Below, piece by piece: positions 8,124 through 26,739 of a DNA stretch of 64,000 bases (position 1 is the stretch's first letter; each line of letters begins with the position of its first letter). A program made the translations under genes and the position numbers. Source of the DNA: Pseudomonadota bacterium (lineage in GTDB: Bacteria; Pseudomonadota; Alphaproteobacteria; Rhizobiales; MH13). The notes beneath the pieces were generated by a model. The model did no database searches, was not told the DNA's origin, and was given only the letters and a program-made list of their open reading frames with translations. The stretch lies in assembly GCA_039024915.1 (NCBI GenBank), contig JBCCPK010000001.1, positions 62,001-126,000 on the forward strand, written 5' to 3'.

Positions 8124-8154
8124 GATTGTCTCCTATGTTGTGGTTTGGGGCCTG

Positions 8155-13452: not shown

Positions 13453-14688
13453 TCAGAGGTTCTCCGCGATATCTTGTGGTGATGGCGGTGCCAGCGGGCG
13501 CAACCCAACCGGCGTGATTTCCCACGCTTTGGCCAGATCGTCGGGCGGCACGAACAGCCAGAAATCATCCGGCAGGCGAAGCGTTTCGGGGTTCCACAAT
13601 TGGTGACCTTCGAGGCGCGCGCACAACCATGCCACAAAGGCCCTGCCCTTCGGGCTGTCCACTTGCGCGCGCCCAAACCGTTCGGCCATGGCGACCAGTT
13701 CATCGTCGCGCGCCTTGCCAAAGCGCAAATAGCCGCCTTGACCGCGCTGGGCGAACCGCAACAGGGTGATGGCCGCCCTTTGCCCTTCGGGCGCCTTGGC
13801 GTGTTCGATCAACGCTGCAGTCCACAAGGGCGAATAGGGCTTGATTTCCGGCGGCAGGTACGCAGCGCCAGACACCGCCTCGCCGTCCAAATCTTCCCAT
13901 TTCCGCTCGGCAAGATAGGTTGATGCCGCAGGTATCGCGCCGCGCTTCTTCCGCTTCAAAACCTCATGGAACGGGGTTATCCCGTCAATCGCGGCTTGCC
14001 GATCGGAATCGGTGATCGTGTCCCAAACCCGTTGAGCTTGCGGCTTGCTTGAGGCGACACGATCAGGCCATTTCGGCCAGAATTTCGAAAACGGGATCGT
14101 TTTGGGTGGGGCTGGTGGTGGGATTTGGGTTTCGGTTTGGGTGCTGGTTTCACCCGTTCGCTCCGTCGCAAGCGACGACCGCTCACGGGCGACGGGCTCG
14201 CGCGCCTGCGCGCCCTCTCTCTCAACCGATGATGGTTCTAATGGTGGTTCTGATGATGGTTTATCCTTTATAGGACCGGCGGCAGTTGCCGCTGGATGTG
14301 CGTCAGTTGCCGCTGGATGTGCGTCAGGTTCCGCTGGTGAAGACTGCTCATCACCAGCGGCGATATCTGCCGGTGGACCCGCCTCTTTTGACCCATTTTC
14401 GGCATGCAATTTCGGCTTACCTTCAAGCGCCAGTTTGTACCGGTTGCGCCCCAATGTGCCGTCTTGGTTGCGTTGCCGAACCTTCGTAACCAGCGCCTTG
14501 TCTTCCAGCCGCTTGATGGCGTCGCGCACCGTGCGTTCAGACAGGTCGGTATCGCCCGCCAACATGGCGATCGTCGGAAAGCATGTGCCCTCTTCGTCGG
14601 CATAATTGGCCAGCATGTACGCGACGAACCGCGCCGAGGAATCCCCCAGCTGCATGGACTTGACCCAGTTGAGCGCTTGGAAGCTCAT
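13453..14688 (-). CDS. Winged-helix phage replication protein
   Basis: 411 residues from the ATG at 14688, which overlaps the preceding stop (ATGA). Residues 1-75 are a winged helix: SSARFVAYMLANYADEEGTCFPTIAMLAGDTDLSERTVRDAIKRLEDKALV, followed by a wing with RNRYKL. This is the helix_turn_helix_36-type domain of phage replication initiators. A low-complexity linker rich in Pro, Ala and Glu (residues about 95-200) contains a 21-bp tandem duplication and one of the hairpin repeats. The C-terminal 200 residues are Trp-rich and unrecognised. Probably the replication initiator. Confidence 0.7.
   Translation of the reverse strand: MSFQALNWVKSMQLGDSSARFVAYMLANYADEEGTCFPTIAMLAGDTDLSERTVRDAIKRLEDKALVTKVRQRNQDGTLGRNRYKLALEGKPKLHAENGSKEAGPPADIAAGDEQSSPAEPDAHPAATDAHPAATAAGPIKDKPSSEPPLEPSSVEREGAQAREPVARERSSLATERTGETSTQTETQIPPPAPPKTIPFSKFWPKWPDRVASSKPQAQRVWDTITDSDRQAAIDGITPFHEVLKRKKRGAIPAASTYLAERKWEDLDGEAVSGAAYLPPEIKPYSPLWTAALIEHAKAPEGQRAAITLLRFAQRGQGGYLRFGKARDDELVAMAERFGRAQVDSPKGRAFVAWLCARLEGHQLWNPETLRLPDDFWLFVPPDDLAKAWEITPVGLRPLAPPSPQDIAENL
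14160..14182 (-). repeat. Hairpin repeat p (inside replication-protein linker)
   Basis: Minus strand: flank GCGGT, stem CGTCGC, loop TT, stem GCGACG, flank GAGC followed by GAACG. It is in frame and encodes part of a SSLATER peptide in the linker of the replication protein. The stem sequence is unique in the family but fully complementary. A GC-rich palindrome (GCGCGC-AG-GCGCGC, then GAGC) lies just upstream in the gene and may be a further relative. Confidence 0.7.
14283..14324. repeat. 21-bp tandem direct repeat (two copies)
   Basis: Two perfect head-to-tail copies, 14283-14303 and 14304-14324. They encode DAHPAAT twice in the linker of the replication protein. The length is a multiple of three, so the reading frame is preserved. 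It could be a simple coding duplication or an iteron-like element, since replication initiator genes sometimes contain the origin. Confidence 0.85.
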
Positions 14689-14897
14689 GATGTGCCGTCC
14701 CCGGCACGCACGTAGGATTTTTGACGCGGGCAATATCGTATGGCCTCAGGATTGCGCTTCTGAAACAGCCGCAAATCGTTGACGGCCTGAGGCAGCGAAA
14801 CGCCGAACTTTTCGCAGATATGGCGACGGTTGATGAAGCCCCAGATACGCACGCTTTCGGCGATCCAAGCCATTCTCTGTTCAACAAACCAGGTCAC
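14685..14897 (-). CDS. Small winged-helix DNA-binding protein
   Basis: 70 residues, essentially one helix-turn-helix: WIAESVRIWGFINRRHICEKFGVSLPQAVNDLRLFQKRNP, with the typical 'I..[FY]G.S..QA..DL..[FY]' pattern of DeoR/HTH-11-type domains, followed by a short basic wing. It sits between the C5 methyltransferase and the replication protein, overlapping both by 4 nt. Probably a phage transcription factor; no target is visible. Confidence 0.65.
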   Translation of the reverse strand: MTWFVEQRMAWIAESVRIWGFINRRHICEKFGVSLPQAVNDLRLFQKRNPEAIRYCPRQKSYVRAGDGTS

Positions 14898-16438
14898 CCC
14901 GCCACCTCACCAGCCGCGAGCATCGCGTCCACAATCCGAAGACGCTCAAACACCAGCTGCCCACAATTGACCGCCCAAGAATTGCCTAAGGCCTTATATC
15001 GCGGCCCGTCTGGGCATTGGTCGGCGGGTTTGCCGCGATACGGTATCGCCGTCCAGCCATCGGGGAAGCCTTGCAGGCGCTCGCATTCCAGCGGTGTCAG
15101 ACGGCGGACGGCGTAGCTTATGGCAACATAGGACCGAGAAGAACCGCCAGAGGCGGCACGCATATTTGCCGTTTCATGTGGGCCTTCTAGAACCGCGCCG
15201 CCCTCGCGTCCACGCAGGTCGAAGGCGACCGCTGTCGTGTGCTTGACCGACAAGGCGGGCGAGAGATCAGGCGTACTTGCAGCCTGAGTACTAGACATCT
15301 CGGCTGGGAAGGCAATCGCAGGCGGAACACCGGCATTCGCATGGCTGCCGTCATGCGCGCCCGCGCGCAAGGTCGGCGACAGGTTTGTCTCAACGTCACC
15401 GCCATGGTCCTTGCTTGAAAAGGCCATCGGCACCAGTGGCGTTCCGCGACCGGTGCCATCCTCGCCCGCGTCAAATCCTTCGGCTCGCAAGGCATGGCTG
15501 ACATACGTATCCAGATCAGCGGAATGACTGTCGTTTGCTTTGGCAAGCAGAGTGTGCGCCACAACCGTCGATAAATCGGCTTCGGGCAATGCGCCCTTGC
15601 GTTCCCGCGCGGTCAATGTGCAGGCAGGATCGTCCGAAACGATCAATCCGCCGTCGCAGTCAAAGTCTGTTCTGAGACCACCGCCCGCAGAGCGGCGGCT
15701 AGGGACGGTGGGAGCGCTTTGCCCCGCTTCTCGGCGCGGCGGAGGATCCCCGCGCAGGCCCTCGCGCTCAAAAAGTACCGCGGCGGCACTGGCCCATCCT
15801 CGAGCACATCCGACAACGAACACACGCCGCCGCCGTTGGGGGACAGCGTGTGGCAGGCCGGATGTTCGGACATATTGAGCGTCCAGAACGCGGTAGGCCC
15901 ACCCGTACCCGCACTGCCCCAGCCCTGCGAGGAAGGTTCCAAAATCCCGCCCTGCGTTTGTCGACAGGACACCGGGGACGTTTTCCCAGACGATCCATCG
16001 AGGACGGTATCGGCGAGCAAGGGCAAGGAAGGTGAGCATGAGGTTCCCGCGCGGGTCATCAAGTCCGTTGCGAAGTCCGGCCACCGAGAAGCTTTGGCAG
16101 GGTGTTCCGCCGACGAGAACATCTGGGTTTGCATCCGGCCACCTTTCAAATTGCGTCATGTCGCCAAGGTTTATAGTGCGACCAGTCTCAGGCAGCGCGG
16201 CAACGCGCTTGATCGCTGCACGGCGCGCACGACCGTCCTTTTCGCTCAGGTCTGGCCTGTCTGGGTCGGGCATGAACAGCGGTCGGGACGACCCGATACG
16301 ATGGTGCAGCACGTGACACGGAAACGGATCGATCTCCGCCTGCCAGCGCCAGTCTATCCATGGCGCCGCCACCTCAGGCGCACCGATCCCGCTGCAGACC
16401 GTCATGCCGCGCATGCGACTCGCCCCGCTGCGTTCCAT
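14894..16438 (-). CDS. DNA cytosine-5 methyltransferase
   Basis: 514 residues. Motif I CSGIGAPE at residues 15-22, catalytic motif IV GGTPCQSFSVAGLRNGL around 110-126 (Cys114), motif VI WENVPG at 151-156, motif VIII QRRRRVF near 210, and motifs IX/X at the C-terminus (RLTPLECERLQGFPDGW, ALGNSWAV). Solitary, with no restriction partner nearby, so it probably protects phage DNA. The region between motifs VIII and IX is long. The ATG at 16438 has GGAG 9 nt upstream, supplied by hairpin q; an internal ATG at 16414 is the alternative. Confidence 0.93.
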   Translation of the reverse strand: MERSGASRMRGMTVCSGIGAPEVAAPWIDWRWQAEIDPFPCHVLHHRIGSSRPLFMPDPDRPDLSEKDGRARRAAIKRVAALPETGRTINLGDMTQFERWPDANPDVLVGGTPCQSFSVAGLRNGLDDPRGNLMLTFLALARRYRPRWIVWENVPGVLSTNAGRDFGTFLAGLGQCGYGWAYRVLDAQYVRTSGLPHAVPQRRRRVFVVGCARGWASAAAVLFEREGLRGDPPPRREAGQSAPTVPSRRSAGGGLRTDFDCDGGLIVSDDPACTLTARERKGALPEADLSTVVAHTLLAKANDSHSADLDTYVSHALRAEGFDAGEDGTGRGTPLVPMAFSSKDHGGDVETNLSPTLRAGAHDGSHANAGVPPAIAFPAEMSSTQAASTPDLSPALSVKHTTAVAFDLRGREGGAVLEGPHETANMRAASGGSSRSYVAISYAVRRLTPLECERLQGFPDGWTAIPYRGKPADQCPDGPRYKALGNSWAVNCGQLVFERLRIVDAMLAAGEVAG

Positions 16439-16444
16439 CCCTGT

Positions 16445-16469
16445 GGCTCCGGGCCGTTGGCCCGACCGC
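16445..16469 (-). repeat. Hairpin repeat q (intergenic, before the C5 methyltransferase)
   Basis: Minus strand: flank GCGGT, stem CGGGCC, loop AAC, stem GGCCCG, flank GAGCC. It occupies the gap between the clamp gene's stop (16487) and the methyltransferase start (16438). Its GGAG provides the Shine-Dalgarno of the downstream gene. A second partial copy without a stem (GCGGTTGGTCACGAGC) directly precedes it at 16470-16485. Confidence 0.8.
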
Positions 16470-16486
16470 TCGTGACCAACCGCACC

Positions 16487-17758
16487 TTACGCCGCCCTTG
16501 GCGCATCTTCGGCCAATTCACGGGACATCGACTGGAACCGCTCAATCAACGGGTGTTTGGGATCTATTGAGCTTTGCATCGGCATCAAAAGTCGACCGCC
16601 ATTCCCGTCCGTCGTGCCGATGGGTGCGCCGACTTGGAAGCTGCGCGGGTCCATTAGGCCGTGCACGGTGCAAACCTCGCCTGCCGCATGCTGCAGGAAC
16701 CGTTGCAGATAGCGATTGTTGAACGATGCATACAAAGTATGCGGATCCGCCCATGTCGCTGCCTGCAGCTTATGCGGCTGCGGCAGCCGGATTGATTCCA
16801 TCAACGCCAACCGCTCAGTGTCCGCGACGGTCTCAACGACAAGATCGAGCCTGTGCGTGCCCTGCGGCACCAGACGGACTGCTCTATCGCGATCATCCTG
16901 CAGCGCACCAAGCCGCCGCAGAGCCGCGCGCACGGCATCGACGGGAAGAATCATTGACCAATCGGTCTGGCCATACTCTGCGTTGCCGCCCAGCCTTTTA
17001 AGAATGACGCGATTGACATCGGGAAAGGCACCGTCAATCAACTTGCTGTGCAAGGTGATGCCAGGCGCGGTCGCCGTGAGACGCTTAACACCCGACGCTG
17101 AGCTGTCACCGGTATCATTCTGCACCGTTAGTCGGTCGATTGTGCCGATGAGCAACAAGGTTTCTATGGTCAGCCGCGGAATAATCGCGCCATACCACGC
17201 GTCGGGCATGGGTGCGTTGAGGAGGCCCCATGCCAGTTCATGCCCGTTCGTGGCGACCGCCACGGCTTCGCCATCAATGCGTGTCAGGCAGGCACCGTGT
17301 AGATAGTATCGGGTCTCTTCGGTCGACAACGCATAGCGCACGGCGCGCAAGGCGGGCAGAAGCCCAGAGATGGCATTACCGCCCAGGCTTTGACCTGTCG
17401 CTGCAGCCGTGGTCGGAAAGTCCGCAGCTGGCACACATGGCAACTCGTACCATGCGTGACCGTGGCGCAGATTGAGCGCGCCAGTATCGCGCGACAAGGT
17501 GATCACCGAATCGGGATCAATCAGCCGCACCACCCGCAAAGCACGAAGCGGAATCGCCAAGGCACCGGCATGCGCCAGCGTCGGCACGGTGACCGTCAAT
17601 GTCTGGTCAAGATCGGTGGCCGTCAGCCGCCCGCCCTTAAACAGAACCGTGGTCAGGACGTTGATAGCCGAGCGGGACATGACGATGCCCTTAAGCAAGC
17701 CCAAAGCCTGCGCGAGATCGCCAGCGCGCATGCGCCATTCAAACGTGGTTTTGGTCAT
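16487..17758 (-). CDS. Phage DNA polymerase III beta (sliding clamp)-like protein
   Basis: 423 residues. Three DnaN-like repeats can be traced: FEWRMRAGDLAQALGLLKGIV at the start, YYLHGACLTRIDGEAVAVATNGHELAWG near residue 150 (compare 'YYLNGI...AVATDGHRL' of DnaN), and a third domain ending LLMPMQ near 395, matching the clamp C-terminus VMPMR. About 25 residues extend beyond that point. It presumably loads as a dimeric ring on phage replication forks in place of the host clamp. Length is greater than the usual 365-375. Confidence 0.85.
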   Translation of the reverse strand: MTKTTFEWRMRAGDLAQALGLLKGIVMSRSAINVLTTVLFKGGRLTATDLDQTLTVTVPTLAHAGALAIPLRALRVVRLIDPDSVITLSRDTGALNLRHGHAWYELPCVPAADFPTTAAATGQSLGGNAISGLLPALRAVRYALSTEETRYYLHGACLTRIDGEAVAVATNGHELAWGLLNAPMPDAWYGAIIPRLTIETLLLIGTIDRLTVQNDTGDSSASGVKRLTATAPGITLHSKLIDGAFPDVNRVILKRLGGNAEYGQTDWSMILPVDAVRAALRRLGALQDDRDRAVRLVPQGTHRLDLVVETVADTERLALMESIRLPQPHKLQAATWADPHTLYASFNNRYLQRFLQHAAGEVCTVHGLMDPRSFQVGAPIGTTDGNGGRLLMPMQSSIDPKHPLIERFQSMSRELAEDAPRAA

Positions 17759-17779
17759 GATCCATCCCTTTTTAGAAGC

Positions 17780-18127
17780 TCAAACGATCAGCCCGACGTC
17801 CATTAAAAGGTGCCATGTGAATGTCGCGGCACAGGCCGCCCACACCCAGTGCGACAGCCGATCCAACATGGCGTCACGATCAGCGCGGGCCTGAATGCGG
17901 GCTATGCGCCGGTTGCTGGCGGCGATGATTTCGTCATGGGTCAAGGCGCGATAGCGCTCAGCGTCGCGCAGCGCGGCACAAAGGTCGCGCGCGCCGGATT
18001 TGCTCAAAGTCACGGTCGCGCCGTCCAGCGTAGGATGTTCCGCTATCCGACGTAAATGCGGTTGCATCCATCGGGCGGTGTCAGATACGCGGTCGTCGGA
18101 CCGGTCGTTGCGGACAAACCTAGTCAT
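17780..18127 (-). CDS. Small phage protein with one membrane segment
   Basis: 115 residues. The N-terminal two thirds is charged and helical (KSGARDLCAALRDAERYRALTHDEIIAASNRRIARIQARADRD), and residues about 92-113 form one hydrophobic segment. It overlaps the upstream methyltransferase gene by 4 nt. No family is recognised. It may be a membrane-tethered phage protein, but nothing in the sequence defines a role. Confidence 0.6.
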   Translation of the reverse strand: MTRFVRNDRSDDRVSDTARWMQPHLRRIAEHPTLDGATVTLSKSGARDLCAALRDAERYRALTHDEIIAASNRRIARIQARADRDAMLDRLSHWVWAACAATFTWHLLMDVGLIV

Positions 18128-19557
18128 GCCGCGCCACCTGAAAACAACGGCCCAGCATCGGGTGCAGGCTGCGTCTTAAGCTTAGCCACGGTGGCCTCAA
18201 CCGACCCTTGCCACGCCTCTTCGATGCGCTTGCGCGCTATGTCGGCATAGGCCGGGTTCAATTCGATCAGATCGCAGGTCATGCCCTTTGCGAGAGCGAC
18301 AAGCGCCGTTGTGCCAGCGCCGCCAAACGGATCAAGAACGCGCCCGCCCTTGGGCCCGCCGGCATCGAGGCAGCGCTCAACCAGTTCCGGCGGAAAAGTT
18401 GCGAAATGCGCATCCGAGAAAGACGCTGTGGCCATCGACCACACAGCGGGTGGCGCGGGCTCATAGTTGCGCAGGTAACGGCCACCGGATTGCTGTTCAG
18501 CTTTGTCCCAACGATCGTTGAACCCGGCATGGCGGCGACTGTGACCGCGTTGTTTGTCAGATATAGGCCCGCCAACAGCCTTCATGGTGCCATTTGTCTT
18601 CGCACCGCCGTTCGCGCGCGTTGAACCCGCTTGGCTGTCGATGTCCTGTGACCACCTCTGCAAGCTTGAGGGCTGCGCAGGTATACGAACGCTCTCTGCA
18701 TCAAAATAATGCCCGAGCGCCGTCCACCTGTTGCGTTCCTTGCCGTTCGCCCCAATGCAGGTTTCGCCAAGGTCGGGGCTGTCGCTAACCTCTTTGGTAT
18801 CGCGCGCCACCCACCACCCCTTGGCGTCCACCGACTTGGTCAAAAGGAAAATCTTTTCGTGCGCCGTCGCGGGTCGATACAGGCCGCTTGAGTCTGGCAT
18901 GGCGTTCGGCTTGGCCCAGAAGATTTCCGACCGAACCCACCAGCCCGCGTCCTGCAGCGCGATCGCCAGCCGGTTCGGGATCATGCACAAATCTTTGGGT
19001 TTCAACGTGCCGCCAGCGACAATGCGACCGCAATGGCCGGTCTGCCGATTGTGGCCCTTGTTGGCGCCACCGCCACGCCGATCCGCCATGTCGTATTTTT
19101 GTGTGTAAACCGGTCCGGACGGATTGTTGCCACCGCCGCGACATCCAGAGCCGTTTGCAGCCTCTTGCGCCCCGCTCAGCGCGCCATAAATCGGCCCGAC
19201 GGTCGAGAACGGTTTGTCGCGAAAGGTCCGGTCGTCGGTGCCTGCGGCCTTGGTGTCCTGTGCCGAACGCCCGTTGGGCTGCGTCGCATAGCAATCGCCA
19301 TAGTTCAGCCACAGCGTACCCGTCGGCTTAAGCACGCGGCGAACCTCATCAAACACCGCGGCCATGACGTCGAGATGCTCGCCAAGCGTCCGCTCAAGCC
19401 CAATTTGACCATCGACGCCATAGTCACGCAGGCCCCAATAGGGCGGCGATGTCACGACGCAATCGAAATGATCGTCCGGTAGATCAGCAAGCCGCGCCAG
19501 CACATCGCCCATATGCATCGTCACGCGCCCATCCAGAAAGGTTTGCGATGCCGTCAT
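18124..19557 (-). CDS. Amino (N6-adenine/N4-cytosine) DNA methyltransferase
   Basis: 477 residues. Catalytic motif IV is TSPPYWGLRDYG at residues 36-47, and motif I, DPFGGAGTTALVALAKG, lies near residue 425: the beta-class order (catalytic motif first). GDCYA and motif WAKPNAMP fit phage and restriction-associated MTases. TSPPYW is shared by N4-cytosine and N6-adenine enzymes, so the modified base cannot be assigned. It is not CcrM-like by length or C-terminus. No endonuclease partner is visible, so it is probably protective. Overlaps both neighbours by 4 nt. Confidence 0.92.
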   Translation of the reverse strand: MTASQTFLDGRVTMHMGDVLARLADLPDDHFDCVVTSPPYWGLRDYGVDGQIGLERTLGEHLDVMAAVFDEVRRVLKPTGTLWLNYGDCYATQPNGRSAQDTKAAGTDDRTFRDKPFSTVGPIYGALSGAQEAANGSGCRGGGNNPSGPVYTQKYDMADRRGGGANKGHNRQTGHCGRIVAGGTLKPKDLCMIPNRLAIALQDAGWWVRSEIFWAKPNAMPDSSGLYRPATAHEKIFLLTKSVDAKGWWVARDTKEVSDSPDLGETCIGANGKERNRWTALGHYFDAESVRIPAQPSSLQRWSQDIDSQAGSTRANGGAKTNGTMKAVGGPISDKQRGHSRRHAGFNDRWDKAEQQSGGRYLRNYEPAPPAVWSMATASFSDAHFATFPPELVERCLDAGGPKGGRVLDPFGGAGTTALVALAKGMTCDLIELNPAYADIARKRIEEAWQGSVEATVAKLKTQPAPDAGPLFSGGAA

Positions 19558-20459
19558 ACTGACCCCTTCGGCCGACGCAGCAGATCGATCTTTCCGACAA
19601 GCCGCAGCGGCCCGCCGGGGTGCGTGTTGCCTATGGTGCAGTCGAGATCATCGAGCTTGGCGCGCAGCCGCGACAACAGCGCGTCAAACGCGGCGGCCTG
19701 GTCGCGGTGACCCAGTCTATTGAGCTGCGTACACACATTGTTGCGGGTGCAATTTGAGGCATACATGAGCGCATGCAGAACGGCCGTTTCGGCCGCGTCG
19801 AACCCATGGCTGTGGTGGACCGACGTACGGTTGCCCGCATCATCGGGCGTTGACGGCAGGGGGAACGGGGAAGCGGATGGCTTGGTTGGCGATGCCTGCG
19901 GCGCAGCAGGAGTTTTGGGCTTGCTCTGGGACCCTTCCTTGGCTCCAGACCGTTGGTCCGACCGCGGCGGCACAACCGCACTTTGCCCTTTGCTCTGCTC
20001 CTGCGGCCCAACCGCACTTTGACCTTTGCTCTGGGCCTGCGGCCCAACCATGCGTGTTTCATCGGCCCAAGGCGGCAACACCAGCTCCAGGGTGCCATCG
20101 TCCAGCATCTCAAACGCGCAGCCTTGCGCCCGCTCTTTCCGGTTGACGAAAGACGGCACGTGACCAAGGTCCAGCCGGTAGTATTGGCCGGTGCCACGCG
20201 AGAATTTCCGCTTTTGCAAAGCGAAGCCGGACGCGCCAGACTCAAGCCGCCTCAGATGCAGCAAACCGTGATGCTCGCCGCTACCAAGATCGACTTGGAA
20301 GATGTCACCTTCGCTCCACTCTTGCGCTGCGACGAATGCACCGCTCAACGTAAGCCACAGGCGGGCATCACTTGCTTTGCCTGGGCGAGATAGCCACGCG
20401 CGGATGACATGCATGGCGGTTGGTTTGGGCGCGGTCGGCGTCAGCGTCTGAAAACCCAT
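19554..20459 (-). CDS. Phage protein of unknown function with hairpin-derived linker
   Basis: 301 residues from the ATG at 20459, which overlaps the GcrA-like stop (TGATG). Residues about 10-110 form a compact basic region (SDARLWLTLSGAFVAAQEWSEGDIFQVDLG...YRLDLGHVPSF). Residues about 125-200 form a disordered linker largely built from three or four hairpin repeats, giving the peptides VGPQAQSK, VGPQEQSK and PRSDQRSGAK. The C-terminal 90 residues look helical with an HTH-like stretch. The function is not recognised; the neighbours suggest DNA transactions. Confidence 0.6.
   Translation of the reverse strand: MGFQTLTPTAPKPTAMHVIRAWLSRPGKASDARLWLTLSGAFVAAQEWSEGDIFQVDLGSGEHHGLLHLRRLESGASGFALQKRKFSRGTGQYYRLDLGHVPSFVNRKERAQGCAFEMLDDGTLELVLPPWADETRMVGPQAQSKGQSAVGPQEQSKGQSAVVPPRSDQRSGAKEGSQSKPKTPAAPQASPTKPSASPFPLPSTPDDAGNRTSVHHSHGFDAAETAVLHALMYASNCTRNNVCTQLNRLGHRDQAAAFDALLSRLRAKLDDLDCTIGNTHPGGPLRLVGKIDLLRRPKGSV
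19923..19979 (-). repeat. Hairpin repeat c: apparent nested copy (inner 19941-19965)
   Basis: Inner copy on the minus strand: GCGGT, stem CGGACC, loop AAC, stem GGTCTG (one G-T wobble), GAGCC. Around it sit the halves of an outer copy: GCGGT with TGTGCC at 19969-19979, and the other arm plus GAGC at 19923-19932. The outer arms now match at only 4 of 6 positions. The whole is in frame in the 19554-20459 gene. Confidence 0.65.
19991..20015 (-). repeat. Hairpin repeat b
   Basis: Minus strand: GCGGT, stem TGGGCC, loop about GCA, decayed stem GGAGCA, then GAGCAAAGG. The downstream bases (GGGCAAAGTGC) are shared with copy a, so these two adjacent copies look like a tandem duplication of hairpin plus spacer. 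In frame (AVGPQEQSK). Confidence 0.65.
20026..20049 (-). repeat. Hairpin repeat a
   Basis: Minus strand: GGT preceded by AT instead of GC, perfect stem TGGGCC/GGCCCA, loop GCA, flank GAGCAAAGG. It encodes VGPQAQSK in the linker of the 19554-20459 gene. Confidence 0.8.
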
Positions 20460-21259
20460 CAGTCCACCTCGCCAACGACACGCTGCGCGGCCCGCGCCGC
20501 ACACGCCTCGCAATAGGAGCTATGCGCTGTCTTTTCGCTCTGTGCCTTGATTTCAGACCCGCGCGCATCGCCCGACCGCACCGGCACAACCGCAGTGCTA
20601 TTGATCGGCGCGCCGCAAACCATGCCGTAATCGGGATGGAAACGATCCGCGTCATGCGGCCAGATCGGCCATGCGCATTGATTGGCGCGACGGTCAACAA
20701 GTGAGATGGGATCATTTTTGCTTGGCTCCGTTCCTGTGGAACGACCGCCGCTGTTTCCTTGCTCTGGGCCACCCCGTTGGCTCCGGACCGTTGGTCCGAC
20801 CGCTGTGGCCCAACCGCTAGCATTCCCGCTCTGCTCTGGGCCTTCGGCCCAACCGCTTCCGTTAGAAAAGACCGCCGCAGATTCGGGCGCTGACGATGAA
20901 GACTGCGGCGGCAAGTTGGCGGCACAGGATGCACCGCCTTCGGGAGGCGCGCCCGTCAAATCCATGCAGGGCGCAGGGTTTGCCGCTACCGAAAAGGGAT
21001 CGGCAGGCGGCAAATCTGTTGCATGCGATGCAAGCGGAACGGGGCGCTTTGCTGGGCTGCCACCACGGCGGCGCAGCTCGCGCTGCGGCTTGGCTTGCCG
21101 AACGGGCGCACCATTCAGGCCGTTGCGATCAATCAGCCCGCAAATCGCGTTGCGCGTCACGCCAAAATGCGCGGCAATATCCGAACGGCTCATGCCGTCG
21201 TCGAGCATCGCCGCGACATGGCGTTTTTGGCCGTCTGTCCATCGCGCGGCAGGCATCAC
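20459..21259 (-). CDS. GcrA-like cell-cycle regulator, phage-encoded
   Basis: 266 residues. The N-terminus WTDGQKRHVAAMLDDGMSRSDIAAHFGVTRNAICGLIDRNGL is the GcrA DNA-binding helix-turn-helix, and the C-terminus holds the sigma70-binding zinc-type motif in split form: CAWPIWP, then MVCGAP, then YCEACAARAAQ. Host GcrA recruits sigma70 RNA polymerase to promoters containing methylated GANTC. Cellular GcrA is about 170-180 residues; the excess here is a long linker (residues about 70-195) and an insertion between VCGAP and YC, both containing hairpin repeats. It overlaps its neighbours in the early operon. Confidence 0.85.
   Translation of the reverse strand: MMPAARWTDGQKRHVAAMLDDGMSRSDIAAHFGVTRNAICGLIDRNGLNGAPVRQAKPQRELRRRGGSPAKRPVPLASHATDLPPADPFSVAANPAPCMDLTGAPPEGGASCAANLPPQSSSSAPESAAVFSNGSGWAEGPEQSGNASGWATAVGPTVRSQRGGPEQGNSGGRSTGTEPSKNDPISLVDRRANQCAWPIWPHDADRFHPDYGMVCGAPINSTAVVPVRSGDARGSEIKAQSEKTAHSSYCEACAARAAQRVVGEVD
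20537..20593 (-). repeat. Hairpin repeat: outer copy interrupted by a second element
   Basis: Outer copy on the minus strand: GCGGT plus TGTGCC at 20583-20593 and the perfectly complementary GGCACA plus GAGC at 20537-20546, separated by 36 nt. The interrupting segment (20547-20582) also begins with GCGGT (20575-20579) followed by a GC-rich palindromic stretch and GGTCTGAAATCAA. It lies in frame in the GcrA-like gene between VCGAP and the YC pair, adding about 12 residues. Confidence 0.7.
20724..20748 (-). repeat. Hairpin repeat f
   Basis: Minus strand: GCGGT, perfect stem CGTTCC/GGAACG, loop ACA, flank GAGCCAAG. The stem sequence is found only here. In frame in the GcrA-like linker (SGGRSTGTEPS). 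Confidence 0.8.
20761..20817 (-). repeat. Hairpin repeat e: nested copy (inner 20779-20803)
   Basis: The clearest nested case. Outer arms are perfectly complementary (TGGGCC at 20807-20812, GGCCCA at 20765-20770, minus strand, extended by AC/GT), with flanks GCGGT and GAGCAAGG. Inside the outer loop is a complete inner copy with GCGGT, stem CGGACC, loop AAC, stem GGTCCG and GAGCC. The reading frame of the GcrA-like gene is kept. Confidence 0.8.
20833..20856 (-). repeat. Hairpin repeat d
   Basis: Minus strand: GCGGT, perfect stem TGGGCC/GGCCCA, loop GAA, flank GAGCAGAG. In frame in the GcrA-like linker as SGWAEGPEQS, a different reading phase from copies a, h and n. Confidence 0.8.
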
Positions 21260-21504: not shown

Positions 21505-21893
21505 TGCTCTGTGCCGTCGGCACAACCGCCAAAACCTGCCTTTGCATAGGCTTCTGTCTGCCGAATGTGCTCAAACCCTGCGTTCGTTATGCCGTAACCA
21601 GCCCCTGCAGGCTGGCCGTCTTCGGTCCACAGACCCCGCTCATACACGACGAAATTGCGGGCGCGCAGGTCAGCGATCACGCCGCGAATGACCTCGCGAT
21701 TGAGTCCAAGCGCATCTTGCAGAACGCGCAGACCAACGCGGCATTCAGGAAACCAGCCATGGATTTCGCACCGCGCCAGTTCGATCAGGATCGCATCCTC
21801 GACCCGTTGGATAGCAACAAGCGCGGCGCACGCGTGATCGGGCAAATGCGAGGGGGTATCTTTGGACTGATCGGGGTTGGCCTGGGCGGTCAT
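21489..21893 (-). CDS. Phage HTH-like protein, C-terminus built on a hairpin repeat
   Basis: 134 residues. RVGLRVLQDALGLNREVIRGVIADLRARNFVVYERGLW is a winged-helix/HTH-like segment, followed by a wing and a GYGITNAG loop. The last 12 residues (GGCADGTEQWVMP) are encoded by hairpin repeat g, so the natural C-terminus may have been shorter. It overlaps the membrane protein gene upstream by 4 nt. Likely a small DNA-binding regulator. Confidence 0.6.
   Translation of the reverse strand: MTAQANPDQSKDTPSHLPDHACAALVAIQRVEDAILIELARCEIHGWFPECRVGLRVLQDALGLNREVIRGVIADLRARNFVVYERGLWTEDGQPAGAGYGITNAGFEHIRQTEAYAKAGFGGCADGTEQWVMP
21506..21529 (-). repeat. Hairpin repeat g
   Basis: Minus strand: GCGGT, perfect stem TGTGCC/GGCACA, loop GAC, flank GAGCAATGG. 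It forms the 3' end of the 21489-21893 gene and spans the start region of the next gene. Confidence 0.8.
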
Positions 21894-22090
21894 GAACCAA
21901 GACCCGGCGCCAGATAGCCCGCAACGGCGGCCACGGTGGGAACCGCAAAAACCAAGAAGAATATCGACCAGAACGCGAATCGCCGCACCTGAGCATCGTC
22001 GCGGTTCTCTTTGTAGACCATGGCGGCAATCGCCAACGTCATGGCCAGAAAAAGCGACAAAGCCGATAGGACAAACGCCATCAGAAGCAT
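21890..22090 (-). CDS. Small two-segment membrane protein
   Basis: 66 residues from the ATG at 22090, preceded by GGGGAGGGG. There are two hydrophobic segments: LLMAFVLSALSLFLAMTLAIAAM near the N-terminus and a second with FWSIFFLVFAVPTVAAVAGYL, joined by a charged loop (YKENRDDAQVRRF). Unknown phage membrane protein of the early operon; its position near the immunity region makes an exclusion role conceivable. Confidence 0.6.
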   Translation of the reverse strand: MLLMAFVLSALSLFLAMTLAIAAMVYKENRDDAQVRRFAFWSIFFLVFAVPTVAAVAGYLAPGLGS

Positions 22091-22091
22091 A

Positions 22092-22388
22092 CTAACGCCC
22101 CTCCCCTTGATCAGCCTGTCGCGCGGTCTCGAGTTCGGCAAGACGCCCCTCCCATTCAGCGTAAAAATTAGGCTGATCATTCATTGCAGACGCGGACTCA
22201 ACGCTCTGAAAAATGGGAACCTGAGCAGATGCCTGACGTGGAAAAAAATGATCGACACGCAAATCATGCGCTCTTGCTTCGGCGTGCAGCTGCTCAATCA
22301 AGCTGCCCTTTCCTAAGCGGTTCAATTTCTCTGCTGTGCGCCGCACAAAACCGGACAAGACCTTAGAGCCATATTGATGCTTAACCAT
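22092..22388 (-). CDS. Small phage protein, unknown
   Basis: 98 residues, charged. The N-terminal half (KHQYGSKVLSGFVRRTAEKLNRLGKGSLIEQLHAEARAHDLRVDHFFP) looks helical and basic; the C-terminal half is acidic and Gln/Glu-rich. Stop and next start are separated by one base. No recognisable family. Confidence 0.5.
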   Translation of the reverse strand: MVKHQYGSKVLSGFVRRTAEKLNRLGKGSLIEQLHAEARAHDLRVDHFFPRQASAQVPIFQSVESASAMNDQPNFYAEWEGRLAELETARQADQGEGR

Positions 22389-22423
22389 TGTCGGCCTCTT
22401 CCGGGGTCATCTTTCCGCTTCGC

Positions 22424-22672
22424 TTAGGCATCCGAACGCCCCTCCCTGCGGTCGTCGGCGCGCGATTGAAACCGCGCGTGCTGCTCAAGGCCGCGCTCCA
22501 AAAACCGCACCATGTCCATGTCGCTCGCCTTGCGGTCGACGCGCGTGGCATGCTCGCCAAGCCAATCGGACGCGAAAAAAAACGGCAGCGCAGGGATCTC
22601 AAAAACCCATGACAGCGCCCGCGCGCACACCGCCCAGACCCGCAAAGCGGTAATGGCAATCGCCCGCTTCAT
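22424..22672 (-). CDS. Small phage protein with a hydrophobic N-terminus
   Basis: 82 residues. IAITALRVWAVCARALSWVFEIPALPFFFA forms one long hydrophobic stretch (residues 4-34), followed by a charged tail ending ERGLEQHARFQSRADDRREGRSDA. The start overlaps the upstream stop by 4 nt. Likely a membrane protein; no family recognised. A GCGGT-containing palindromic stretch at about 22448-22480 overlaps its 3' end. Confidence 0.5.
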   Translation of the reverse strand: MKRAIAITALRVWAVCARALSWVFEIPALPFFFASDWLGEHATRVDRKASDMDMVRFLERGLEQHARFQSRADDRREGRSDA

Positions 22673-23106
22673 CGCGCAGCCCCGTCATCTTTTGGCATGT
22701 GAGCGTGCGGCCCGACGGCGTGTTTCCACTTGCTCTGTGCCTTCGGCACAACCGCGCGTTTAGCCCGCAAATCCGCGAGCATTCCTTTGCGGCGCTTAAT
22801 GTCGGCGATCATCGCCGCCTCGGCTTCGGCAACCTGCGCCGCGGTCAGCCAGTCAAACGCAGACCCCGGCCAAAGCGCGGCGATAACCTGCGGGCCGTAG
22901 GCGCTGACGAGCGCCCAGAAATGCTCAAGCCGCATGCCCGAGCGACGCTCAAGCCAGTTGCGTACGGTGTCGGCGGGCAAGCCTGTGTCGGCGGCGACGG
23001 CGAAGCGGGTTGAATTGGGGTGCAGGCGGCGCAGGAATGCGGCCAGCCCGTCATAATCGGGCGAAAAGGACGATGGGCAGTTTTGACCATGCTTTGGGGC
23101 AGTCAT
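22669..23106 (-). CDS. Phage helix-turn-helix regulator (CII-position)
   Basis: 145 residues from the ATG at 23106 with GGAG upstream. An HTH is visible in DYDGLAAFLRRLHPNSTRFAVAADTGLPADTVRNWLERRSGMRLEHFWALVSAYGP, and a later segment has the I-K-R-R-K-G-M-L-A-D-L-R-A-K-R pattern common in alphaproteobacterial phage regulators. The C-terminus includes AVVPKAQSK from hairpin h. The 5' leader carries a GACAAG/CTTGTC stem just before the Shine-Dalgarno. As second gene of the leftward transcript it may act like a CII or replication activator. Confidence 0.6.
   Translation of the reverse strand: MTAPKHGQNCPSSFSPDYDGLAAFLRRLHPNSTRFAVAADTGLPADTVRNWLERRSGMRLEHFWALVSAYGPQVIAALWPGSAFDWLTAAQVAEAEAAMIADIKRRKGMLADLRAKRAVVPKAQSKWKHAVGPHAHMPKDDGAAR
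22732..22755 (-). repeat. Hairpin repeat h
   Basis: Minus strand: GCGGT, perfect stem TGTGCC/GGCACA, loop GAA, flank GAGCAAGTGG. It encodes AVVPKAQSK near the C-terminus of the 22669-23106 gene. A decayed GTCGGGCCGCA stretch follows 20 nt later. Confidence 0.8.
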
Positions 23107-23309
23107 GACAGGAACTCCGTGACAAGGTGAACTTGTCGCGGGGAAATCCTGCGGTTGTGCCGAAGGCACAGAGCAAGAAGCAAAACGCCGTTGGGCGGAA
23201 TGCCGAGAGCAGACAGAAACGGCACCAAGCGGTCGGTCGGAAGGACCGTAGCGCGGTGCGCAAAGCGAAGATGCACCGGAGCGCGGTGCAGAGATTGAAA
23301 CAGAGCGAC
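23107..23309. repeat. Leader region filled with plus-strand hairpin repeats (j, k, l and relatives)
   Basis: About 200 nt between two minus-strand genes. Read on the plus strand: copy j (23152-23175, perfect stem TGTGCC/GGCACA, loop GAA), degenerate copy k (23188-23211, flanks GCCGT and GAGC), copy l (23230-23253, stem CGGTC/GACCG, flank TAGC), and a further palindrome with CGGTGC/GCACCG followed by GAGC at 23254-23285. Orientation is opposite to transcription. A plus-strand reading frame crosses all copies without a stop, but it lacks other gene features. Confidence 0.7.
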
Positions 23310-23633
23310 TCATTCCGCAGCCTCCGCAGGCTGCGCAGGATCGGCACCATCGGCGGCAACCGATGGCGCCAAAGCGGCAGGGCCGGGGCGGGGCACATCG
23401 TCCGGCCAAATCGCATCAAGGGGCCAATTTTGAGAAAGCCATGAAACCAGCTGATCATGCTTGCGGACGTTAAAACCCCGCGCGTCGCTCCGAACCGCCA
23501 ACATGAAGTCTGGTTGTCGTAAAATGCGATGGCAGACGGTGTTAATCGACCACGCGCGTTGCGATGCCGCTTCATAGGCGTCGCAAAGCGCTATCAGGTT
23601 CCGACGCAGTTTCTGTTCAAGCAAAGGCTCCAT
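23310..23633 (-). CDS. First gene of the leftward lytic operon (Cro position)
   Basis: 107 residues. YEAASQRAWSINTVCHRILRQPDFMLAVRS...GFNVRKHDQLVSWLSQNWPLDA looks like a divergent helix-turn-helix found in alphaproteobacterial phage immunity regions. The last 25 residues are Ala/Pro-rich. It is transcribed divergently from the repressor gene with three operators in between, as Cro would be. Assignment as Cro analogue is by position and the HTH-like pattern. Confidence 0.6.
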   Translation of the reverse strand: MEPLLEQKLRRNLIALCDAYEAASQRAWSINTVCHRILRQPDFMLAVRSDARGFNVRKHDQLVSWLSQNWPLDAIWPDDVPRPGPAALAPSVAADGADPAQPAEAAE

Positions 23634-23722
23634 GGGCCGTCATAGATTTATGACGATTATCAGTTTGTCAATCAGATTTTTATGATCTGCGCAAATTTCT
23701 CAGTCAGCTAAAACTGACCGGT
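23634..23722. promoter_or_regulatory. Phage immunity region: divergent promoters with three operators
   Basis: Three 16-bp sites of the form RTCA-N8-TGAY: 23639-23654 (GTCATAGATTTATGAC), 23671-23686 (ATCAGATTTTTATGAT) and 23703-23718 (GTCAGCTAAAACTGAC). Their centres are exactly 32 bp apart. Leftward promoter: TTGACA on the minus strand at 23666-23671, with the first operator over its -10 region. Rightward repressor promoter: TTATCA (23657-23662), 18 bp, TATGAT (23681-23686), with the second operator over the -10. The third operator touches the repressor start and suggests autoregulation. Confidence 0.8.
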
Positions 23723-24418
23723 ATGGACACAGTCTTTCAAAGTCGCGTCAAAGAACGCCTTCGCGAACTGAACATCAACGAGTACGACGCGGCCCAACGT
23801 ATGGGCAAGAGCCGCACCTTCGTCTACGATATCGTCACAGGCAAAAAGACCAGCGTGCAGGGCGAAAACCTCGTGCATTTGGCACGTGCCCTCAATGTCA
23901 GCGCTAACTGGCTTTTGGGCGCTTCTGACGAAAAAACAGCGCGTATCGATAAACCACAAGAACGGCGCTCAGTCCCAAATTCTGACCCGCTTGAAATTGC
24001 AAGCATGACACCGCGCGACGTACCAGTCTTCGGCACCGCATCCGGATCGATCCTTGGCACCAAATCGGGTGCATGGCAGCTCACCGACGAGCCCGTTGAC
24101 TGGGTGCATCGCCCTCCGGGGCTCATTGGCGCGCGCGACGCTTATGCGCTCTATGTTGAAAATGAGAGCATGGTGCCGCAGCACAACCCCGGCGATTTGG
24201 TCTATGTCCACCCAGGCCGGCCTGTTCGATCCGGCGACAGCGTCATCGTCAAGATCCAGAATGCCGAGCGCGAAACCTACATAAAGCGTTTCCGCAAGCG
24301 CGAGAACGGCGACGTGCGGTGCGAACAACACAACCCGAAATCCACAGTCACATACAAGCGCGACACCGTCATCGGCGTGCACAAGGTCCTGTCACTGGCC
24401 GAACTTATGGGGGTTTGA
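23723..24418 (+). CDS. CI/LexA-type phage repressor with S24 autoprotease domain
   Basis: 231 residues. Residues 1-65 are an XRE-type HTH (SRVKERLRELNINEYDAAQRMGKSRTFVYDIVTGKKTSVQGENLVHLARALNVSANWLL). The C-terminal S24 domain has the catalytic Ser in NESMVPQHNPGDLVYVHPG and the Lys in ERETYIKRF. It keeps the lysogen silent by binding the operators on both sides of its operon and is inactivated by RecA-stimulated self-cleavage. The start ATG lies 4 nt past the third operator. Confidence 0.95.
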   Translation: MDTVFQSRVKERLRELNINEYDAAQRMGKSRTFVYDIVTGKKTSVQGENLVHLARALNVSANWLLGASDEKTARIDKPQERRSVPNSDPLEIASMTPRDVPVFGTASGSILGTKSGAWQLTDEPVDWVHRPPGLIGARDAYALYVENESMVPQHNPGDLVYVHPGRPVRSGDSVIVKIQNAERETYIKRFRKRENGDVRCEQHNPKSTVTYKRDTVIGVHKVLSLAELMGV

Positions 24419-24422
24419 TTTG

Positions 24423-24689
24423 ATGGGTGTTCTTCTCGGCATTGTGCACTGGATCATCGCGCTGCCCTTACTGGGCTTCACGCTGGTCACGATTGTGCCC
24501 GTCGGCTTGTTTCTGCTCTTCGGAGCATTGATCCCGGCGGCCATCGCCAAAAGCAAGGACCGCAGTTTCTGGCTTTGGTACGCCTATGGCGTGAACCTTT
24601 GGATCGTGGCGCTGATTCACGCGCTCGTTCTCAGCCGACCGCCGCAGCGCGTGATTGTCGAATATCGCGACCGACCTGAGACCGACTGA
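24423..24689 (+). CDS. Small membrane protein cotranscribed with the repressor
   Basis: 88 residues with three hydrophobic segments (residues about 3-20, 20-42 and 52-70) and a charged C-terminus VEYRDRPETD. It begins 5 nt after the repressor stop, so it is expressed in the lysogen. In many temperate phages a small membrane protein in this slot mediates superinfection exclusion. That role is an inference from position and topology only. Confidence 0.65.
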   Translation: MGVLLGIVHWIIALPLLGFTLVTIVPVGLFLLFGALIPAAIAKSKDRSFWLWYAYGVNLWIVALIHALVLSRPPQRVIVEYRDRPETD

Positions 24690-24713
24690 TAGTGCACAGA
24701 AAGGCCGTCTACC

Positions 24714-25535
24714 TTGGTTGGACCCACTATCAGCGACAACTCCAGGCGGGTATTTCCGAGCGCCGGCCTAAAGCACGATTGGGCCAACCATCACATCCAA
24801 GCTCTGCATCAACAGTGGCGAGCTTTCCTCGAATCGGATTTCTGCGAAGTCGCGACCGAGGACGATGCGACTGGGGGTCAAACGCTTCGGATCTACAGTG
24901 TCAAGAAGATGCCGGCAACCATCCCGCTCATGCTTGGAGACGCGATCCACGCGTTGAATTCTGCCCTGGACCACATGATTACTGACTTGGTCGACGTCAA
25001 CGACCACCGGTCCAATTTTCCCCGAGACGAAACGCGGGAGCAGCTTGTAGCCGCCTTCAGAACTGAACCTGAGACCATCGCCGGCCGCACAAAGAAAAAA
25101 GGACGGTACGCGGCGATAGAAGAGGCTGTGCCCGGAATCGCCCAATTCATCATCGACGACATACAACCTTACCGGGGCGCGGATAACTTTCTTTGGGCCC
25201 TCAATAAGCTCGACGTCCGTGATAAGCACCGCATGCTCATCCTGATCACGGGGCTCAGCCATATCAGCGGCATCAACGCCGTAAACGAAAATGGCGAGCC
25301 GTGTATTCGCGACTTCAGCGCAGTCTTGAAAACCGATGGATCGATTGGGCCGATTGGCTTCACGAGGCAAAAGATCGAGATCACCAGTTATAACAAGCCC
25401 TCTGCCGAGATATTCATAAACGAGCCCGGCGTTATGACGCAGCAACGAGTCATGCCAACGCTGGTTTATGCTTCGCAAACCGTTTCTGAGACTATCGATC
25501 GCGTTGCTCAATTTGTTCTTTCCAAGAAACGTTGA
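24714..25535 (+). CDS. HEPN-reminiscent protein, candidate lysogen defence gene
   Basis: 273 residues from a TTG preceded by GAAAGG. The segment MPATIPLMLGDAIHALNSALDHMITDLV resembles a widespread uncharacterised family whose core reads L-G-D-x-x-H-N-L-R-S-A-L-D-H, with a HEPN-like R-x4-H. Here the Arg is replaced by Asn (N-S-A-L-D-H). A later KLDVRDKHRMLI is also typical of that family. It lies in the repressor transcription unit, so it is expressed in the lysogen and could be an exclusion or abortive-infection gene. The role is inferred. Confidence 0.6.
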   Translation: MVGPTISDNSRRVFPSAGLKHDWANHHIQALHQQWRAFLESDFCEVATEDDATGGQTLRIYSVKKMPATIPLMLGDAIHALNSALDHMITDLVDVNDHRSNFPRDETREQLVAAFRTEPETIAGRTKKKGRYAAIEEAVPGIAQFIIDDIQPYRGADNFLWALNKLDVRDKHRMLILITGLSHISGINAVNENGEPCIRDFSAVLKTDGSIGPIGFTRQKIEITSYNKPSAEIFINEPGVMTQQRVMPTLVYASQTVSETIDRVAQFVLSKKR

Positions 25536-25538
25536 CGA

Positions 25539-25964
25539 TCAGCGTTGCGCCGATCCAGTGCGATGCCGATCAATCACGCTAGACAGAGCAAGCGACATCG
25601 TACTCAGCGCCGCGCTGTAGGCTTCGCTTCCAGAAACATCGTCGTCATGGACGAAGTACGGCTTTGATGACTGAGCTTCCAACTCGCGTGCAAGGTCCGT
25701 GAGTACCGTCATCAAAAGCGGTTGCGATTGCGGCTCATCAAACCGAGCTTTTGTCCCGTTATCGTCTTCGTCCTGAGCCCGCGCCACCCATGCCTCAAAC
25801 CGAACCAGATCTCGGATCACAGCGCGAAACAAGTCGCGCGTGGTCTCGCCATCGTCTAAATCGTCCCAATCGGCGGCGCCAGTTGGGTCCAGCCGTTCGA
25901 TGTACGAGTAGAGGCGTTCGGCAAGTTTATCGATGGCCTCGTTTGGGCTCAGGTCCTCAGCCAC
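25539..25964 (-). CDS. Acidic phage protein, convergent to the repressor operon
   Basis: 141 residues from the GTG at 25964, chosen because GGAGGA lies 8 nt upstream. The protein is acidic and mostly helical, with LSPNEAIDKLAERLYSYIERLDP at the start and a region ALSTMSLALSSVIDRHR at the end. No family recognised. Only 3 nt separate its stop from that of the HEPN-reminiscent gene. Its position in the immunity region and opposite orientation fit an accessory gene. Confidence 0.55.
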   Translation of the reverse strand: MAEDLSPNEAIDKLAERLYSYIERLDPTGAADWDDLDDGETTRDLFRAVIRDLVRFEAWVARAQDEDDNGTKARFDEPQSQPLLMTVLTDLARELEAQSSKPYFVHDDDVSGSEAYSAALSTMSLALSSVIDRHRTGSAQR

Positions 25965-26073
25965 CGCGCAGATCCTCCAGAACCGAGACAAACCAAAGTG
26001 CCGCCAGCCAACCGAATGTATCGGCAACGCGCATGTTAAGCAGGGAAGTCAGCAGGTCGGTTATATAAAGCAT
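25957..26073 (-). CDS. Putative 38-residue membrane peptide upstream of the acidic gene
   Basis: The ATG at 26073 follows GAAGAAAC. It encodes a peptide with a hydrophobic stretch (TFGWLAALWFVSVLEDL) and ends at 25957, overlapping the GTG start of the next gene by 8 nt. Small hydrophobic leader plus acidic downstream protein could be a toxin-antitoxin-like or coupled pair, but only the overlap and the RBS-like sequence support the gene. Confidence 0.35.
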   Translation of the reverse strand: MLYITDLLTSLLNMRVADTFGWLAALWFVSVLEDLRGG

Positions 26074-26167
26074 GTTTCTTCGTTTGTTTTCGACGCGGCT
26101 AGATTAAGCCCAGATCGAACAGCGAGGATAACAATAAGCAAACCCTCTACCACACCGATTGAGAATC

Positions 26168-26233
26168 GTCATTTTAAAATGATCATATATTTATGATTAT
26201 CTGATTGACAGTCATATTTATCTGACTTACCGT
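26168..26233 (+). promoter_or_regulatory. Second repressor-type operator cluster and rightward promoter
   Basis: Three sites of the same 16-bp form as in the immunity region: 26168-26183 (GTCATTTTAAAATGAT), 26182-26197 (ATCATATATTTATGAT) and 26211-26226 (GTCATATTTATCTGAC). A perfect -35 TTGACA lies at 26205-26210 and a TACCGT -10 at 26228-26233 (17-bp spacing), with the third operator filling the spacer. Repressor binding should therefore silence the operon starting at 26266. The region 26074-26167 upstream is AT-richer and shows no gene. Confidence 0.75.
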
Positions 26234-26265
26234 CCGCCGCCATCACACCGATGGAAGGCGCGACG

Positions 26266-26739
26266 ATGACGCATCACCCGAACCCCGCAAGCCCCCGACC
26301 TGTTACGTACCATCTGGACGTCGACGCGACACTGGCCATGATGCTGCACGCGCGCACCGCCGACGAGGCGCTGGCGTTGTTGCAGACCCCGCCGGGCGGC
26401 GCGGCAATCGCCAAATCTATAGCATCCGAATGGGCGGCGGACCCTGCCGCGGCCATGGCGCAGGTTGCTTTGCAGCGCCGCGCCATGGTCGCCTCCCACG
26501 ATGCGCACAACCCTCACGACGTCGAGCGGGTCATCCCACTGTTCAAGGGTTTGGGCTACAGTTATGACGACCTGTTCGCCCACCTTCCTCGCGCCATTGA
26601 ACTCTACGCCGCCGCCGTCACGGCGTCCGCGCAAGTGCTGGCGCGCACCTGCGGCGCGGTTGTGCCACAGGCACAGAGCGAAGCGGAATGTCCGGTTGTG
26701 CCGAAGGCACAGAGCGGAGCGGACGGAAAAGCGGCATGA
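26266..26739 (+). CDS. First gene of the rightward phage operon, unknown
   Basis: 157 residues from the ATG at 26266, chosen because GGAAGG lies 7 nt before it (an ATG at 26251 is in frame). The N-terminal 130 residues are Ala-rich and helical (DEALALLQTPPGGAAIAKSIASEWAADP). The final 25 residues are encoded by two hairpin repeats (AVVPQAQSE and PVVPKAQSG). No family recognised. Its expression is expected to be repressor-controlled. Confidence 0.6.
   Translation: MTHHPNPASPRPVTYHLDVDATLAMMLHARTADEALALLQTPPGGAAIAKSIASEWAADPAAAMAQVALQRRAMVASHDAHNPHDVERVIPLFKGLGYSYDDLFAHLPRAIELYAAAVTASAQVLARTCGAVVPQAQSEAECPVVPKAQSGADGKAA
26656..26679 (+). repeat. Hairpin repeat n
   Basis: Plus strand: GCGGT, perfect stem TGTGCC/GGCACA, loop ACA, flank GAGCGAAGCGG. 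In frame as AVVPQAQSE. It is one of the few copies oriented rightward, matching its host gene's direction. Confidence 0.8.
26692..26715 (+). repeat. Hairpin repeat o
   Basis: Plus strand: CCGGT, perfect stem TGTGCC/GGCACA, loop GAA, flank GAGCGGAGCGG. It lies 12 nt after copy n and shares its downstream AGCGGA-type spacer, so the pair may be a tandem duplication. Confidence 0.8.

Follow-up and report, generated by a model that had tools for sequence, protein, structure and literature searches.

Why should one prophage carry so many copies of a hairpin about two dozen nucleotides long, whose stems differ in sequence and still pair? The question is raised by a stretch of 64 000 nucleotides (positions 62001 to 126000 of contig JBCCPK010000001.1, or G000:C1:62001-126000; hereafter the window) from an alphaproteobacterial genome of the order Rhizobiales, a placement that GcrA and ImuAB-DnaE2 also suggest. 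We call this genome G000 and compared it with its congeners G001, G002 and G003 and with more distant genomes. An earlier sequence-only reading had described about 18 hairpins among prophage genes and noticed none in host DNA. Our analysis points to a new family of tiny mobile palindromes of the repetitive extragenic palindrome (REP) type, with a signature of its own and probably moved as single-stranded DNA in trans, an explanation to which we assign a probability of roughly 60%.

In the window, a covariance model run with filters off located 14 copies with E ≤ 0.03, none of them outside 14160–26715; an additional match at 63681 (E = 0.28) was regarded as chance. The copies read GCGGT, a 6 bp stem, a mostly 3 nt loop and GAGC, and are 24 bp long, except for the 23 bp copy at 14160. 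A nested copy interrupts each of three more hairpins, of which one keeps just four of its six pairs, and a degenerate extra copy lies at 23187, which together agrees with the earlier estimate of about 18; the six stems named at that time are all present. The flanks alone (GCGGT-N15-GAGC) matched the window 13 times, where shuffled sequence gave 1.25 matches on average and never more than 5, and nine of the 13 matches had at least five of six Watson–Crick pairs. Because the window had been chosen for such pairing, the count over the whole genome is fairer: the flanks plus one fixed C-G pair matched G000 50 times (a control pattern, six times), with six pairs in 33 matches, five in seven and one to four in ten. 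Thus 40 of 50 have at least five pairs and just one has four, a sharp split between paired and unpaired sequences that confirms the family as real.

Among 93 copies from the genus (59 distinct), the 5′ foot is GCGGT and the 3′ foot GAGC with few variants, these feet having themselves been search criteria. The loop is 3 nt long in most and of the GNA type in 72, and stem position 1 is T-A or C-G and position 2 G-C, in a scan that presumed a 6 bp stem. GNA loops give very stable DNA mini-hairpins; they fit a DNA form of the element, without proving one. When 65 copies were folded as DNA, the minimum was the expected hairpin in 39. Five of the six stem pairs vary on both sides in the 59 distinct copies, which had been chosen with near-complete stems; their covariation score of 0.437 (0.172 in shuffles) was reached by none of 500 shuffles, though the bare number of two-sided varying pairs was matched by 29 of 500. 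At the genus loci 76 of 91 copies were paired, an upward-biased fraction since these loci were fetched for holding copies, by patterns fixing several stem pairs. Collectively, the data support a stem under structural constraint with compensatory change, as had been proposed from the sequence.

Comparison of orthologous sites supports the view that the copies insert and are mobile. Between conserved anchors, ImuA has 33 residues in G000 and 10 in G001 (+23), and ImuB 136 and 47 (+89); the extra residues are in-frame hairpin copies with linkers and, in part, other sequence. Ten copy-bearing gene ends (nine in G003, one in G002), picked because one species bears a copy there, were followed into the other species, and 22 of 24 orthologous ends had no match within 400 nt. 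These ten come from 14, with L079, L088, L089 and L090 excluded because the copy lay upstream or antisense inside a gene, or the orthologs were unclear. As exceptions, G002 has another copy at L082, and G000 one weak match at ispE that we regarded as chance. Some doubt attaches to the G002 bacterioferritin end, which may hide a decayed sub-threshold copy, to the uncertain ortholog at L083 and to one G001 contig (L162) that stops within ∼160 nt. At the end of a gene read as metX, G003 has an insert with several copies where three congeners pass straight into the next gene, and in the ftsZ–ftsA gap a G000 copy aligns with a decayed G003 copy, G003 having one more. The names ICDH, bacterioferritin, metX, metW, ispE, livM, imuA, dnaE2 and sdhB were assigned by reading the sequence or from general Pfam domains.

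The arrangement of the copies indicates what may be moving. Neighbours within 60 bp are mainly head-to-tail (49 in the same orientation, five opposite), and same-strand spacing in this range is 32–37 bp in 38 of 49 cases. One array in G000 has 13 units with a 37 bp period, and the units of one array have common stems and linkers. Copies also sit inside other copies: the window and 28 genus loci hold six nested cases with at least four of six outer pairs, compared with none in reversed sequence, the outer hairpin having six pairs in three cases and four in the other three. Same-strand nesting has the geometry 3+24+9 in all three instances (3 nt after the left arm, 9 before the right), and inverted nesting 10+24+5 (two) or 9+24+5 (one); a seventh case (L087) also shows 10+24+5. 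If the old loop was 3 nt long, the insert would be 33 or 35–36 nt, the same as the usual array spacing. Downstream of the hairpin, an excess of purines or of A fades at ∼10–12 nt in both phyla concerned (21 single genus copies; 40 copies from the Omnitrophica genome described below), and the moving unit would then be the hairpin plus its tail, 33–36 nt. As the clusters are themselves dense, we make no claim that insertion favours loops over linkers. At three loci (L013, 4450; L018, 7287; L016, 7605) the same inner copy CGGTCC/GAA/GGACCG recurs within or next to split outer hairpins, each time with a similar left neighbour, as if the composite itself spreads.

The element is not restricted to phage. 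Model searches scored a limited number of candidates in each genome (150, 54 or 20); copy counts are therefore lower bounds and absences weak, and some of the matches counted at E ≤ 1 are due to chance. When 150 candidates per genome were scored with model R1 at E ≤ 1, G000 gave at least 76 matches, G003 at least 59, G002 at least 21 and G001 at least two; five outgroups gave none or one each, at E 0.4–1. A strict pattern found 40 copies in G000, 1, 8 and 20 in the congeners and none in 37 other genomes, and a 299-genome sample of the phylum that included G000 added one match with four of six pairs. The apparent restriction to the prophage did not hold: many G000 copies lie in and around imuA-imuB-dnaE2 and beside uvrB, ftsZ/ftsA and the genes for PNPase, an iron-sulfur protein and L21, and chromosomal genes and gaps of the three congeners carry copies as well. 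Among viral contigs, 45 of the 47 stretches examined (L009 and L010 apart) gave 45 matches, two with six pairs, where one or two were estimated by chance; one 24 kb viral contig has three matches, two of them strong. L009 and L010, both IMG/VR viral contigs, pair fully and are read as host DNA, since 2.8 kb of L010 align at 75% with a G000 locus that adjoins a copy.

Outside the genus, a strict scan of a genome contig collection, which may leave out records near the window's own, gave one match, the Omnitrophica genome UBA2337. It holds at least 45 R1 matches at E ≤ 1 and at least 46 matches to model R2 at E ≤ 0.01. Twenty stretches from it, found by a model that scores pairing, contain 40 hairpins with the same constant letters and stems of 5–8 bp, the outer pair being GC in 27, CG in nine, AT in two, TG in one and unpaired in one. 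Separately, 35 distinct rows in an alignment fitted to R1 showed covariation, which here takes in the outer pair (GC 27, CG 6, AU 1 and UG 1). Another 144 sampled genomes of that phylum yielded three with one weak match each. Among 385 genomes of the window's class (E ≤ 0.001, 20 candidates per genome), G766 had at least 13 copies, G795 at least three and three more genomes one each; G766 and G795 belong to families other than that of G000. The covariance-model search that had been recommended thus returned matches in the congeners, Omnitrophica, G766 and G795. By eye, several G766 copies lie within a further outer stem, and in G795 three copies (L204–L206) lie in ∼230 bp repeats, 87–92% alike, where the hairpin caps a long inverted repeat.

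By the features tested, the element appears to act like a REP and yet to lie outside both described super-families, GTAG and CGTC, which comprise small palindromes after genes and inside repair genes including uvrB and dnaE2 (PMC3733652). In common with GTAG REP and REPIN elements, as portrayed in PMC3116915, PMC3733652 and PMC8266576, it has a small hairpin, an unpaired foot, variable compensated stems, a bias to gene 3′ ends, clusters and some intragenic copies. In contrast to these, it carries conserved motifs to the left and to the right of the stem, lacks an unpaired GTAG at its foot and is accompanied by no gene for a REP-associated tyrosine transposase (RAYT; Y1_Tnp) in G000–G004 or G337; neighbours are mainly head-to-tail, unlike the inverted doublets of REPINs, and copies nest. 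The likeness to Rickettsia palindromic elements (RPE) seen in the earlier reading holds for in-frame entry into genes with shorter orthologs (ImuA and ImuB, G000 versus G001), as does the remark on size: a 24 bp core and a unit of 33–36 nt, against about 150 bp (PMC10969869), a comparison of lengths. Cyanobacterial small dispersed repeats are comparable as very small mobile repeats. In the open PMC literature we met no description of a GCGGT…GAGC motif, which does not rule out that one exists. Three known classes were rejected: an Rfam family (no window match at gathering score, and nothing but a tRNA across 15 of 19 loci), an IS200/RAYT-type element (no transposase match in G000–G004 or G337) and CRISPR, array linkers being near-identical and not varied spacers.

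The explanation that we favour describes the unit as N-C-GGT-(stem usually 6 bp, loop usually 3 nt, often GNA)-GA-G-N′ followed by a ∼10 nt purine-rich tail, A-rich in Omnitrophica, where N and N′ also pair and covary. An enzyme acting in trans would recognize the folded single strand by its constant GGT/GA foot and excise or copy it as a short single strand, which would be joined next to the loop of another hairpin or elsewhere that single-stranded DNA is exposed; arrays would extend through repeated insertion or tandem duplication. Stem constraint, congener differences, in-frame copies and nesting geometry are direct observations, and the single-strandedness, the enzyme and the direction and order of events are inferred. 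The mobile hairpin imagined from the sequence is supported by ortholog length and presence differences and by nesting, and its single-stranded intermediate may be correct. A more far-reaching version is less likely than not: a third REP-type super-family with a two-sided foot, NC-GGT…GA-GN′, would span unrelated bacteria, its 33–36 nt single strand copied and inserted at a fixed point beside its own loops by an enzyme unrelated to RAYTs.

Several observations weigh against single-strand movement in trans. The ImuA difference of 69 nt is not exactly two 36 nt units, so other length changes took part. Some sites are old, given that G000 and G003 both carry the element at the uvrB end. The outermost flank pair of the 59 genus copies is G-C in 52 and unpaired in seven, without covariation. 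RNA folding closed the outer pairs too in 38 of 65 copies, which leaves room for a role as RNA. Y1_Tnp (PF01797) had no match up to E 10 in G000–G004 or G337, other enzyme families not having been sought; a positive control matched in 10 of 14 genomes, G002 and G004 are 78% and 58% complete, and G766 and G795 lay outside this search. No transposition intermediate was seen. Queries with four prophage proteins found no close relative (33 phage records for the RepO-like protein, none covering 80% and all below 60% identity, and nothing for the others), so that an empty site for the window's copies could not be demonstrated. Finally, tandem duplication and hairpin-templated repair could create some of the arrays and some of the covariation, with no enzyme required.

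Taken further, this last point yields a rival in which slippage, template switching and palindrome-correcting repair multiply the copies without any dedicated enzyme. Hairpin-templated correction would also restore stem pairing, and the common stems and linkers of array members at one locus are as this rival expects; we nevertheless find it unlikely, as copies are dispersed at unlinked loci, present or absent at intact gene ends, nested with near-fixed geometry and marked by the same constant foot in unrelated lineages. Spread through RNA, in the manner of short interspersed nuclear elements (SINEs), would have a hairpin transcript with an A-rich tail reverse-transcribed and inserted. It could account for the A- or purine-rich ∼10–12 nt in two phyla, for RNA folds that close the outer GC pairs together with a U-G pair, and for the seven of 33 G003 copies that lie 0–15 nt past a gene end on the same strand; against it, arrays run antisense within imuA/imuB, nested copies occur in both orientations and some Omnitrophica copies come after what reads as an intrinsic terminator, and we judge it rather improbable. 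Immobile hairpins selected for regulation, by protecting mRNA 3′ ends or binding a protein, would explain why the stem is constrained and why part of the G003 copies follow gene ends. This is very unlikely given that congeners differ at 22 of 24 gene ends, that copies take both orientations and lie within genes, and that none overlaps the terminator-like sites of the window region. Intrinsic terminators themselves were rejected (16 such sites in 13.4–31.5 kb, shuffle mean 20.1, with 0 of 16 overlapping a copy), as was a conserved protein motif: the copies use either strand and several frames and occur between genes too, which a conserved peptide does not explain.

The remaining rival makes the element a divergent branch of the CGTC super-family, whose members, according to PMC3733652, are reported without a dedicated transposase, are commonest in alphaproteobacteria, and have 8–9 bp stems whose first two pairs are A-T, loops of 4–5, head–head dimers and CCA tails; dRS3, RPE-4 and RPE-6 are counted among them. 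A similar size class, the alphaproteobacterial bias, the lack of a known transposase and insertion in or beside repair genes of the uvrB/dnaE2 type speak for such a branch (PMC3733652). Its rules for tag, stem, loop and tail differ, however. Our element has no CGTC/TGTC/CCTC tag, its foot being GCGGT or, in the opposite reading, GCTC, which differs from CCTC by one letter; its stem is 6 bp (5–8 in Omnitrophica) and begins with T-A or C-G, then G-C; its loop is mostly 3 nt; its copies run head-to-tail; and a purine-rich stretch follows it, not a CCA-type tail. We hold this affiliation to be improbable, and retain a separate REP-type family as the preferred explanation.

The host prophage spans 1817–31122, its outer ends not being defined, with genes for tape measure, tail terminator, capsid, protease, portal and TerL at 1.8–11.8 kb, RepO-like, two methylase, Pol III beta-like and GcrA-like genes, a CI-type repressor (23723–24418) and an integrase (30001–31122). 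On the minus strand, the short copy GCGGT CGTCGC TT GCGACG GAGC (14160–14182) is inside the RepO-like gene (residue 184), and CGGGCC/AAC/GGCCCG (16446–16469) separates the C5-methylase gene from the Pol III beta-like gene. A 319-residue open reading frame (ORF) holds the nested copy CGGACC/AAC/GGTCTG (19942–19965), whose split outer hairpin (19923–19979) keeps four of six pairs in 3+24+9 geometry, then a copy with a decayed stem (19992–20015) and, 36 bp from it, another (20028–20051). The split hairpin TGTGCC/GGCACA (20537–20593; six pairs, 3+24+9) has a degenerate nested copy and is itself an R1 match with a 57 nt span. The GcrA-like gene contains CGTTCC/ACA/GGAACG (20725–20748), CGGACC/AAC/GGTCCG (20780–20803), nested in the split hairpin TGGGCC/GGCCCA (20761–20817; six pairs, 3+24+9), and TGGGCC/GAA/GGCCCA (20833–20856). 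Still on the minus strand, TGTGCC/GAC/GGCACA (21506–21529) forms part of the C-terminus of a 134-residue ORF and TGTGCC/GAA/GGCACA (22732–22755) of the C-terminal part of the ORF at 22669. On the plus strand, TGTGCC/GAA/GGCACA (23151–23174) and a degenerate copy (23229–23252; E = 0.015) lie within the mechanically called ORF 22669–23409, upstream of its likely start near 23107, and TGTGCC/ACA/GGCACA (26656–26679) lies at the C-terminus of a 162-residue ORF with a further copy 36 bp downstream (26692–26715).

Computed overlap places 13 of the 14 copies within mechanical ORFs, or 11 once the two plus-strand copies at 23.2 kb are dropped, because the real start there probably lies downstream of the called one. 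A stop codon in any of six frames occurs in 13 of 65 distinct copies, as against 59% of plain shuffles, in which the palindrome is lost; copies can persist in prophage linkers and termini because few contain stop codons. The prophage is best explained as one crowded landing place. Elsewhere in it, direct repeats at 27900–27939/29128–29167 (40 nt, 98%) and 28374–28411/29452–29489 (38 nt, 95%) look as if a prophage gene was duplicated, and A+T-rich gaps at 23640–23720, beside the CI-type repressor, and 26160–26230, upstream of the 162-residue ORF, have TTTATGA-like words in common, perhaps operators. In G000, an A+T-rich gene pair lies between two arrays (L012, ∼7890–9755), its first gene reading like an HD-domain protein. 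The three densest sites seen are imuA-imuB-dnaE2 (L016), uvrB (L012) and the window prophage, which may be chance; such loci are usually under SOS control.

Within one genus, ImuA and ImuB, proteins of error-prone repair, have grown in frame by way of these copies. The family would add to the REP-like elements one with its own recognition foot, and the near-fixed nesting geometry suggests the length of its moving unit; if the third super-family is real, few known mobile DNA units would be as small. The constant GGT/GA foot in unrelated genomes would offer a clean target for finding a non-RAYT enzyme that moves REP-like elements.

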